Assembly (NCBI GenBank): GCA_902776195.1
Contig: CACYPF010000002.1
Location: 62,001-126,000 of the forward strand
From: an uncultured Prevotellaceae bacterium
Lineage (GTDB): Bacteria; Bacteroidota; Bacteroidia; Bacteroidales; Bacteroidaceae
Direction of reading: 5' to 3'
Length of the DNA stretch: 64,000 bases
The notes under the pieces are model-generated. The model was given only the letters and a program-made list of their open reading frames with translations, was not told where the DNA came from and did not search any database. Shown in pieces: positions 47,846-55,378 of the stretch (positions are counted from its first letter, which is position 1; each line of letters opens with the position of its first letter). The position numbers and the translations under genes are program-made.

Positions 47846-49074
47846 TTCAGTATTGTTATTGGATGATGGTCATTGAGTTGTATTCTGACGGGTGCCTCCT
47901 GCTGGAGTCCTAATGCCTCGCAAGCCTCGTTCCATAGTTGCTGACTGTCAGTGGTCACCTTGGGAGCGATGACACTATTCATGACGATGCAGCCGTCATC
48001 AGCAAGGACACTGACCACCTTCGTCATTATCTCCTTCAGATGTCCCCCATGCCCGCCAATGAAAACGGCATCAGGACGTTGTAATGGAGAATTGGCAAAG
48101 GGGAATTGGCAATGGAGGAAATCGCCCATGTGGATATGGATGCCGGGGGCACCAAAGCGACGCATGTTCTCTTGGATGATAGACTCACACTCAGGACGGA
48201 TCTCAAAGGCATCGATATGCAGATGAGGGAACAGCAGGCGCGCCTCTATCGAGATGCTTCCTGTGCAGAAGCCGATGTCCCATAGCGTATGCCGTCTGGG
48301 AAGGTCGAGTGCCTGTAAGGTCATCAGGCGAATCGGCATTTTGGTAATCATCTTCGTCCTGCCGTCTAAGAGGGTGAAGGAACTGTCGGGGATACCGAAA
48401 GGTTTGGGAGAGTGATGAGGGGCAAGCGTTGAGAGTATGAGACAGTTAGGGTGGGAGAACTCACACACGGCGGCTTCCTGGAGGGAGAGGGTCGTCACCC
48501 TTTCTTTCTCTGTGTTGCCGAGGTGTTCCCCCACATACATGGCATATTGGTCATAACCATACTCCAGTATCCTTTGGGCAATAGCGGAAGGGGTGTGCTC
48601 CCTGTCTGTCAGCACTCCTATCTTGTCTGCCCGTTCTATCAGGGCACGGTCGAACTCCTGCCAGGGTCTGCCGGTCAGTGAGACGATACGCATGTCATGG
48701 TAGGGTATCACCAGACGGTGAGCCAACATCTGGAGGGAGTTGAAAGTAGGGTAGACCACTATCTCCGCATTCGGCATCTTCCGCTGTACCGTATTGGCAA
48801 AACCGAAGAACAGCGGATCGCCACTGGCGAAGATGGTTATAGTTGAGAGTTGAGAGTTGAGAGTTGAGAGTTGATATTGCTCGAAGACGGCATCAAGGGG
48901 TACGGTGATGTCAATCCACTGCGCGTCAGCAGGGAGGTAGGGGGCGACAATCTCATGATGACGCTTGCCACCCGAGAATACCTTTCCGTTCTTGATGACC
49001 TCCATCACCTCAGGAGGAAAGAACGGCTTCGGATTATCCGTGATACCAATAATGATAAATTTCAATTCTTCCAT
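47833..49074 (-). CDS. cobL: Precorrin-6Y C5,15-methyltransferase (CbiE-CbiT fusion)
   Basis: The 413-residue protein joins CbiE (about 1-195; ASGDPLFFGFANT) and CbiT (about 215-413; LWDIGFCTGSISIEARLLFP). It methylates C5 and C15 and decarboxylates the C12 acetate. Two sequence-repeat tracts lie inside it: five AGTTGAG heptamers (48841-48875) encode residues about 67-78, just before the GDPLFFG motif, and two 14-base units (48086-48113) encode a loop before PDAVFIGG. Both keep the frame open. The ATG lies in a tandem 16-mer. Confidence 0.93.
   Translation of the reverse strand: MEELKFIIIGITDNPKPFFPPEVMEVIKNGKVFSGGKRHHEIVAPYLPADAQWIDITVPLDAVFEQYQLSTLNSQLSTITIFASGDPLFFGFANTVQRKMPNAEIVVYPTFNSLQMLAHRLVIPYHDMRIVSLTGRPWQEFDRALIERADKIGVLTDREHTPSAIAQRILEYGYDQYAMYVGEHLGNTEKERVTTLSLQEAAVCEFSHPNCLILSTLAPHHSPKPFGIPDSSFTLLDGRTKMITKMPIRLMTLQALDLPRRHTLWDIGFCTGSISIEARLLFPHLHIDAFEIRPECESIIQENMRRFGAPGIHIHMGDFLHCQFPFANSPLQRPDAVFIGGHGGHLKEIMTKVVSVLADDGCIVMNSVIAPKVTTDSQQLWNEACEALGLQQEAPVRIQLNDHHPITILKCRK
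48086..48113. repeat. Two 14-base tandem units inside cobL
   Basis: GGAGAATTGGCAAA (48086-48099) and GGGGAATTGGCAAT (48100-48113) are 12/14 identical. Fourteen is twice seven, so it matches the periodicity of the other tracts. Confidence 0.75.
48841..48875. repeat. Heptamer tandem repeat (AGTTGAG x5) inside cobL
   Basis: Four perfect AGTTGAG copies plus a fifth AGTTGAT. Seven is not a multiple of three, so a gain or loss of one or two units would shift the cobL frame. Confidence 0.9.
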
Positions 49075-49093
49075 TTTTCAACTCTTCCATTCT
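49062..49093. repeat. Tandem 16-mer spanning the cobJ/cobL junction
   Basis: TCAATTCTTCCATTTT (49062-49077) and TCAACTCTTCCATTCT (49078-49093) fill the gap between the cobJ-cobH stop and the cobL start; the cobL ATG is inside the first unit. Confidence 0.75.
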
Positions 49094-50506
49094 TCACAAG
49101 TCTCTCCCAGGTTTTAGTTGTGCGGCATCATCGTAACAAAGTATCGCATTACAGAGCGTGGCGGCAAGATTACTGCCACCCTTGCGCCCTTCGACAATGA
49201 TTTTGGGAATGTCACGGAAAGGCTTCACCATGTGTTTCGACTCACAGACATGGACGAAACCCACAGGAGCGGCGATGATACCAGCAGGATGCGCCTTGCC
49301 TTTACGGATCAAGTCGCAGAGTTCCATCAGTGCCGTCGGTGCATTACCGAAAGCAAAGAGAGCGTCAGGATGCTCCTCGACGGCAAGACGAATACCCGCT
49401 TGCGTCCGGGTGATACCCTCTGCGGAAGCCATCTCAGCCACCCGTGGGTCTTGCAGGTAACACTTCGCCTCCATGCCCAGTCGTTGTAAGGCACCTTTAC
49501 GTATGCCACTGGTCACCATCGTCACATCCGTCACAATGGTTCTCAGACTGCCATCCTTCACCATCTTATACAGATGCTCCACAGCCCCCTCGTCGGTATA
49601 GAGAATATGCTCCATCTCAAAGTCGGCAGTGGTATGGATGGCATGCAGCAGCGCCCATTTGCGGTCAAGAGGAATGTCCTTGTCCTGCAACTCAGACTCA
49701 ATACGTCTGAAACTCTGTATCATAATCTGCTGACCGGGTTTTTCATTAGAAGTGAGAGGTGAGGGGTGGGAGGTGAGGTTATACCCACGGGGGGTAATTA
49801 TCTTCCCGTCCTCGATATACGACTGGGAATTACCAATGAGGATGACGGTAAACATATCAACCTCCTCGGGATTAAAGTCATGAAGAGTCGTCACCTTTAT
49901 GTTCTGCTCTGGTCTGCCAGCCTGGCGGACAAAACCCACAGGAGTGCTTCCTGAGCGTTCCTGCAGGAAGAGTTCTTGTAAGCGGTACAGTTGCCAGTAA
50001 CGCTCATGACTCTTGGGATTATAGACAGCAGTGACGAAATCACCAGTGGCGGCGGCACGGATACGACGCTCTATCGTCTCCCAAGGTGTCATCAAGTCCG
50101 AGAGAGAGATGACACACAGGTCATGTCCGATAGGAGCCCCTAACAGTGATGCCGCTTTCTGGAAAGCGGAGATGCCAGGCAGGGAGCAGACCTCAACATC
50201 GGAACCCCGTTCTTTCCGCATCTCATAGATCAGTGGTGTCATGCCATAGATACCAGCATCACCAGACGATATCACGACAACCGTCTTCCCCTGTTCTGCC
50301 TGTATAAAAGCCAGCTCAGCCCTCTCACGCTCTCTTTTCATCCCTGTGTCGATACACTCACACTGCGGAGGGATGAAGGATTTGATGAATTGGAAATAGA
50401 ACTTATAACCGACAATCACCTCTGCCTCCTTGATGGCTTCCGTTACTGCCGGTGTCATGTCCTCAGGTCCTCCAGGACCTATTCCTGCAACAATAATTTT
50501 CTTCAT
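49094..50506 (-). CDS. Fusion of precorrin-3B C17-methyltransferase (CobJ/CbiH) and precorrin-8X methylmutase (CobH/CbiC)
   Basis: I start at ATG 50506 (MKKIIVAGIGPGG); 61 further codons upstream show no similarity and cross the divergent promoter. Residues 1-240 are the SAM methyltransferase CobJ/CbiH (SSGDAGIYGM, LPGISAFQKAA, TAVYNPKS), residues about 256-470 the methylmutase CobH/CbiC (HTTADFEMEHIL with its catalytic histidine region, VTMVTSGIRKGAL, GFVHVCESK). The linker at about 243-252 is encoded by a heptamer tract (49751-49778). It leads the three-gene corrin-ring operon. Confidence 0.94.
   Translation of the reverse strand: MKKIIVAGIGPGGPEDMTPAVTEAIKEAEVIVGYKFYFQFIKSFIPPQCECIDTGMKRERERAELAFIQAEQGKTVVVISSGDAGIYGMTPLIYEMRKERGSDVEVCSLPGISAFQKAASLLGAPIGHDLCVISLSDLMTPWETIERRIRAAATGDFVTAVYNPKSHERYWQLYRLQELFLQERSGSTPVGFVRQAGRPEQNIKVTTLHDFNPEEVDMFTVILIGNSQSYIEDGKIITPRGYNLTSHPSPLTSNEKPGQQIMIQSFRRIESELQDKDIPLDRKWALLHAIHTTADFEMEHILYTDEGAVEHLYKMVKDGSLRTIVTDVTMVTSGIRKGALQRLGMEAKCYLQDPRVAEMASAEGITRTQAGIRLAVEEHPDALFAFGNAPTALMELCDLIRKGKAHPAGIIAAPVGFVHVCESKHMVKPFRDIPKIIVEGRKGGSNLAATLCNAILCYDDAAQLKPGRDL
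49751..49778. repeat. Heptamer-period repeat in the cobJ-cobH linker
   Basis: AGTGAGA, GGTGAGG, GGTGGGA and GGTGAGG follow one another and encode the linker between the two enzyme domains. Confidence 0.8.
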
Positions 50507-55340: not shown

Positions 55341-55343
55341 CTC

Positions 55344-55378
55344 TCTAAACTCTCAATTCTCAACTCTCAATTCTCAAC
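55344..55378. repeat. Heptamer tandem repeat between cobB and cobQ
   Basis: TCTAAAC, TCTCAAT, TCTCAAC, TCTCAAT and TCTCAAC are arranged head to tail. The tract encodes the last codons and stop of the cobB C-terminal frame and reaches nearly to the cobQ ATG. Confidence 0.88.

Follow-up and report, generated by a model that had tools for sequence, protein, structure and literature searches.

Seven-base tandem arrays in cobL and other genes of a Prevotella-type bacterium: a probable dispersing repeat family accommodated within enzymes

The window examined here, a stretch of 64,000 nucleotides from an uncultured Prevotellaceae bacterium (assembly GCA_902776195.1, contig CACYPF010000002.1), carries a cobalamin synthesis cluster on its reverse strand, in and between whose genes lie short tandem arrays with a period of seven bases. 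The gene cobL (47833..49074) is intact and encodes a 413-residue CbiE-CbiT fusion, the precorrin-6Y C5,15-methyltransferase (Pfam TP_methylase; structures 3e05 and 3njr). Its array, at a site we call slot 1 (48841..48875), reads CAACTCT on the coding strand and encodes QLSTLNSQLST. Tandem Repeats Finder (TRF), run with a listing threshold of score 30, reports it as AGTTGAG at 48841-48874, with 4.9 copies at 100%, as a first reading of the window from its sequence (the original prediction) had proposed, except that a T closes the fifth unit. We propose that such arrays probably belong to a dispersing heptamer family (consensus TCA[AC][CT]TN), retained in genes only where reading frame and protein fold survive.

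The other tracts named in the original prediction were largely recovered, all of them on the reverse strand. The cobJ-cobH fusion open reading frame (ORF; 49094..50689, gene name from the original prediction) contains a degenerate array in its linker (49748..49778), CACCTCT-like on the coding strand and in frame as LTSHPSPLTS, which TRF lists as AGAGGTG-like at 49748-49777 (4.3 copies, 78%) or as a 14-mer at 49752-49778 (1.9 copies); it is also found in the closely related sister species. A further array (55343..55379) separates the split cbiA/cobB from cobQ (53871..55340), both named by sequence reading; TRF reads TCTCAAY at 55344-55379 either as 3.9 heptamers (90%) or as a 14-mer in 2.6 copies (95%). 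The upstream ORF, the C-terminal half of cbiA/cobB (55367..55930), takes its final codons and its TGA stop from this array. The cbiA/cobB gene exists as two overlapping ORFs (55367-55930 and 55906-56559), and since it is split likewise in the sister species the division is not a simple assembly error. A 16-mer repeat composed of two octamers spans the cobJ-H/cobL junction and the start of cobL (49060..49096; 2.3 copies, 90%). The proposed pair of 14-base units in slot 3 of cobL (48086..48113) is visible on direct reading, but only 12 of 14 bases agree and TRF does not list it. Likewise, the suggestion that the window holds no such tracts elsewhere is fair for longer tracts, with a second, stricter period-7 scan returning only 48835-48879 and 55343-55379, but TRF lists four short ones (9847-9861 and 10214-10233 with period 7; 17656-17682 and 40105-40132 with period 14).

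The implied tie to cobalamin synthesis does not extend to the genome as a whole. The genome holding the window (hereafter the own genome) is a 2.97-Mb draft of 42 contigs, 93.55% complete, and is probably Prevotella-type, judging from its closest named cobL locus, that of uncultured Prevotellaceae bacterium RUG037 (L031, 95%; identical to G035/L112 over 4.2 kb). A tolerant scan of its contigs C1 and C3 (360 kb) found 16 period-7 arrays, against none in three Markov-3 simulations, which excludes a chance origin. Period 7 stands far above the neighbouring periods genome-wide: the same contigs gave one array of period 6 and none of period 8, with periods 9 and 22 also frequent (10 each), and 80 cob loci from other species gave 116 arrays of period 7 against 0, 7 and 9 for periods 6, 8 and 9. 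Per 10 kb, period-7 arrays numbered 0.92 in 20 comparison stretches of the genus (contig starts, some of them short), 2.13 in the cob loci of the same genomes, 0.44 in the own genome, 0.20 in other genera of the family and 0.08, all from one stretch, in other families of the phylum. The whole-genome heptamer search proposed in the original prediction found 62 positions matching (TCAMYTN)3 exactly in the own genome, where we estimate about 0.005 per genome by expectation. The same pattern occurred in 138/200 genomes of the genus and in 94/296 of a phylum sample; of the 126 genomes of the genus that lack a cobL match, 28 held at least 50 positions, including G007 (203), G094 (193) and G192 (244). 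Heptamer arrays also occur in records without a metagenome-assembled genome label, namely Prevotella sp. ne3005 (L075) and P. ruminicola KHT3 (L074).

Many hosts of these arrays have nothing to do with cobalamin. For 15 arrays on C1 and C3, seven lie inside ORFs, four at ORF ends and four between genes; with 93% of the sequence covered by a simple ORF caller, arrays are enriched per base outside genes, yet about half are inside them. A Pfam scan of ten array-bearing proteins, CobL among them, identified on these contigs a Radical_SAM_N protein (which we take to be YgiQ-type), HPPK, RsmF and Queuosine_synth (QueA), and on contigs C35 and C19, chosen because they are array-rich, an amidohydrolase (dihydroorotase by sequence reading), an acyltransferase, 5-FTHF cyclo-ligase, peptidase M3 and TRCF. 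The last, an Mfd-type protein (L161:10510-13932), contains four separate heptamer arrays, all in frame. HPPK was matched in 113/120 genomes, and of 30 loci fetched 22 were readable; a second variable slot of this protein has period 7 in 4/22, including own and sister, although the slot pattern took in extra upstream protein in 4/22 loci. Heptamer arrays are also seen in divergent intergenic regions (own C1:150747-150788, L150; L162:2202-2243), flanked by TAACTTTGC-like boxes, where they are possibly promoter spacers.

The cobL alignment allowed a single orthologous site to be followed across species, using best-scoring loci compared at species level (124 rows, 119 of them different sequences, as L163-L166 and L168 duplicate others). 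A period-7 tract was present in 52/124 rows, as against 0, 1, 1 and 1 rows for periods 6, 8, 9 and 10; the multiples 14 and 21 appeared in 47 and 20 rows, and period 16 in three. In all 52 rows the tract falls in one of three slots: slot 1 (residues ~64-80, 44 rows), slot 2 (~212-224, between both domains, 15 rows) and slot 3 (~322, two rows). These arrays are direct repeats of 25-105 bp encoding varied peptides, and those of slot 1 comprise 24 unit classes, 22 of which fit A....YC. The remaining slot-1 contents are hairpins (17/124 rows, defined by a simple hairpin test), other inserts (28) and loops of at most seven residues (35). GC-rich hairpin inserts of the CTCCCCTCC...GGAGGGG type stand in frame at slot 1 in L073, L078, L090, L109 and others.

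On a quick LG+G4 tree of cobL with 44/116 inner branches open, slot-1 unit class carries almost no phylogenetic signal (31 changes against 33.0 when shuffled, with 14/200 shuffles as low), and the kind of content follows the tree somewhat (54 changes against 64.9, 0/200 as low). As estimates of how often slot 1 gained arrays separately, and assuming no allele exchange, loss of its HDEV-type loop is counted 30, 23 or 8 times, and heptamer-bearing groups 20, 17 or 3 times, at support cut-offs of 0, 80 and 95. In an AlphaFold2 model of CobL with a mean predicted local distance difference test score (pLDDT) of 85.2, the three lowest blocks are residues 81-90 (70), directly behind slot 1, residues 221-230 (70), which overlap the last part of slot 2, and residues 321-330 (62), within slot 3. 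The blocks of slot 1 have values of 86 and 76, and this slot is modeled as a helix end and a turn preceding a strand.

What fills a slot can change far more quickly than the gene around it. For pairs of cobL rows we compared codons outside the slots, and the slots separately, where random pairs have an identity of 0.40 +/- 0.14 with a 95th percentile of 0.64. L172 and L173 agree at 98.9% outside the slots and at 0.36 in slot 1, where heptamers face an unrelated insert and the right side is changed too. The own and sister genes, likewise at 98.9%, carry five CAACTCT units and an octamer-like array respectively, with an exact left edge and 4/6 bases differing on the right. At greater distance, slot-1 identity is 0.33 for L063/L072 (90.4%) and 0.52 for L064/L065 (89.8%), and of two further pairs at 89-91% L035/L042 retains the slot (0.98) and L034/L036 does not (0.64). 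Length also varies at other arrays: relative to the own genome the sister is one unit (7 nt) shorter at the cobB/cobQ array and 32 bp longer at the cobJ-H/cobL junction 16-mer, the YgiQ-type array differs between them by 12 bp with frame kept, and the HPPK array is identical. Among other pairs, L038/L040 differ by 28 bp upstream of cobL, L076/L086 by 21 bp in what reads as the cobJ-cobH gene, and L039/L050 by 63 bp within cobL. All three coding changes (+12, +21 and +63 nt) preserve the frame, and the remaining ones (7, 28 and 32 nt) are found either upstream of cobL or where an ORF ends. The own and sister genomes align over about 73 kb in all at at least 90%; in own C1:120-140 kb, matches above 200 bases are confined to the first 4.7 kb.

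Several further observations point to a common family whose content is copied. Pairs of arrays at the same locus share a unit in 18/122 cases, against 5.7 when shuffled (0/2000 as high), a figure that is inflated since the test counts related species' loci as independent. In a single genome, that of L047, heptamers surround CTTCCGGCGAAGCCGATTC in both cobL slots, and the spacer of this composite array is present four times over three sites: once in each cobL slot and twice, as a double copy, on a different contig. Allowing two mismatches revealed no further occurrence in the genome. We conclude from this recurrence that array content moves from one site to another. Despite a diversity of 54 units among 127 arrays, 103 of the 127 contain a TCA core, against a fraction of 0.298 after letter shuffling, and the core is about equally common in arrays within ORFs (69/84), in those on ORF edges (25/31) and in intergenic ones (9/12). 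Inside ORFs the orientation is strongly biased, with 64 arrays reading TCA, five TGA and 15 neither; coding itself imposes this orientation, as the opposite strand tends to carry stops.

Taken with the comparison of close species, these data favor the second option of the original prediction, a repeat family that spreads and settles wherever it is tolerated, and copying combined with slippage under purifying selection is its likely mechanism. In this model, new arrays would be copied from other arrays through template switching or ectopic gene conversion, would then lengthen, shorten and become more uniform through slippage, seven bases at a time, and would be retained in genes by purifying selection only where the event preserves frame and fold. 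The outcome in cobL would be a tolerated, variable STLNSQL-type peptide insert and no on/off switch.

A number of points weigh against this interpretation. Slot-1 identity between own and sister (0.67) barely exceeds the 95th percentile of random pairs, so that the own heptamers and the sister's octamer-like array may be related; L172/L173 is therefore the only clear whole replacement at this closeness. Four of six distinct pairs at at least 95% retain their slot, one of these being the short empty loop. In both own/sister and L172/L173 the bases 3' of the slot are altered along with the array, which neither slippage nor a clean insertion explains, and short cobL segments may be exchanged between species. 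A search of the own genome for a donor of its cobL array together with the flank found none: the site itself matches with no mismatch and two others with three. Cob loci, picked here around a slotted gene, hold arrays at about 2.3 times the density of the comparison stretches (18 in 84.5 kb against 30 in 327 kb, P 0.005). The reversed control pattern is nearly as frequent in the own genome as (TCAMYTN)3 (53 against 62), and a second pattern scan gave 106 matches against 109 backwards; these controls are not clean negatives, since AGTTGAG has mirror symmetry and the reversed pattern is also matched by TCAACTN. The inflation of the unit-sharing test and the confinement of the composite array to one genome fall on the same side.

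It is possible, though we hold this only tentatively, that in Prevotella-type genomes an active, dedicated copying process spreads arrays, among other places into essential enzymes, and continues to supply fresh loop peptides, with period 7 set by its machinery. If true, this would be a tandem-repeat counterpart of the protein-coding palindromes of Rickettsia. It is unlikely that each array arose in place from a chance seed by independent slippage, with polymerase geometry setting the period and no copying between sites. The wide variety of units agrees with such an origin, as do the heptamer excess reported for many bacteria (PMC4679880 and PMC4692102) and the 7-nt polymerase contact proposed in a 2007 study cited by PMC4679880. 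Against it stand the TCA core common to coding and non-coding arrays, the composite array with its identical spacer at three sites, and the whole replacement in L172/L173.

If cobL segments recombined homologously across species and carried slot contents along, this would account for the conserved codons flanking the slot, the mixing of slot kinds over the tree and the joint change of the slot and the bases to its right. We nevertheless judge such exchange improbable: in each pair the 60-base block preceding that of the slot has only one mismatch, the own 3' flank ACCATC is present in 0/123 other cobL rows, and arrays at unrelated loci are left unexplained.

The first option of the original prediction was a contingency locus, in which slippage of AGTTGAG shifts the cobL frame and toggles cobalamin synthesis. 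Simple-sequence contingency loci are coding tandem repeats with unit lengths not divisible by three, and the own cobL tract is indeed an in-frame, nearly perfect repeat of seven bases, with copy number differing between species at other arrays. However, all 124 cobL rows form one open frame of 384-448 amino acids, so that the proposed alignment with relatives revealed variation in copy number and content between species but no out-of-frame array variant (0/124). Four further cobL matches were flagged with a stop, none inside an array: that of G179 precedes the frame start, those of G070 and G298 are close to the C-terminus, and that of G300 is at about residue 30. With arrays also in Mfd, HPPK and other unrelated housekeeping enzymes, and in array-rich genomes without a cobL match, we consider such a locus very unlikely; a cobalamin-specific switch was rejected on the genome-wide spread of arrays and the intact frames. 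Phase variation of cobL is thus unsupported at species level, and rare frame variants may occur within a population. As a separate observation, the cobL matches L323 (G300) and L324 (G298) have an internal TGA outside the arrays, and slot 3 of G300 holds a long heptamer array. A classical mobile element, a miniature inverted-repeat transposable element or insertion sequence relative, would fit dispersed, multi-copy arrays in both orientations, but is most improbable as their carrier given that array length and unit vary and that replaced sites inspected by eye, with no dedicated search, showed neither a target-site duplication nor a terminal inverted repeat nor fixed ends.

The dispersing family has several relatives among known repeats. 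Tandem heptanucleotide repeats of cyanobacteria are known as short tandemly repeated repetitive (STRR) sequences. GGGNATC repeats of Xanthomonas and Nostoc are reported in PMC4692102 to be under-represented in coding regions, and the same source describes an over-abundance of heptamers in bacteria. Our arrays resemble both in their 7-base unit, dispersal, low copy number and proximity to gene ends; unlike the single G-rich GGGNATC type, they comprise many TCA-core units and are common inside enzymes. TAACTGA direct repeats, as described in PMC4679880, occur in Beggiatoaceae, some cyanobacteria and five Bacteroidetes; read one way they carry stops in every frame, and read the other way they are open. 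They lie mostly just upstream of starts, coding copies are mainly at protein ends and related heptamers are rare. The likeness extends to a TCA in the reverse complement TCAGTTA, to one open orientation and to occasional positions within ORFs. In contrast to that exact unit, ours are variable, sit inside housekeeping-enzyme domains and differ in content between close species, and neither TAACTGA nor TCAGTTA is found among the cobL slot units or the 30 commonest of the 54 array units. Rickettsia palindromic elements, as described in PMC10969869, are about 150 bp long, encode a conserved peptide and insert in frame into unrelated metabolic genes; ours share this in-frame placement but are mostly direct-repeat arrays of 30-45 bp with varied peptides. 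The Prevotella-type arrays may thus be a variant form of bacterial heptamer repeats, with the Rickettsia elements as an analogue.

Among the matches listed from the open-access literature searched, none reports these heptamer repeats in Prevotella; what looks new is that they turn over fast and often lie within the domains of enzymes. The bacterial heptamer excess is in print without a settled cause. Here one orthologous site can be read in dozens of species, close relatives included, and is short in some, filled in others and variable in content, so that it offers a direct test of how 7-base arrays arise. The system also offers an example of a non-coding repeat type turning into in-frame protein sequence of housekeeping enzymes, and its inserts can mislead annotation and strain typing.

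Other tandem repeats accompany the heptamers. TRF finds a 24-bp tandem duplication, 95% alike, at window positions 43676-43723 within the ORF at 42931-45009. A second family with a 22-bp unit occurs at window positions 33854-33899 and 33983-34045 and at own C3:18570 (L153), with 16 exact runs in 360 kb and one array two units (44 bp) shorter in the sister. Finally, 9-bp arrays with CTATAG/CTAG cores lie at own C3:15355 (L153) and C3:98532 (L157); one faces a different repeat in the sister species, and one is 18 bp shorter there.

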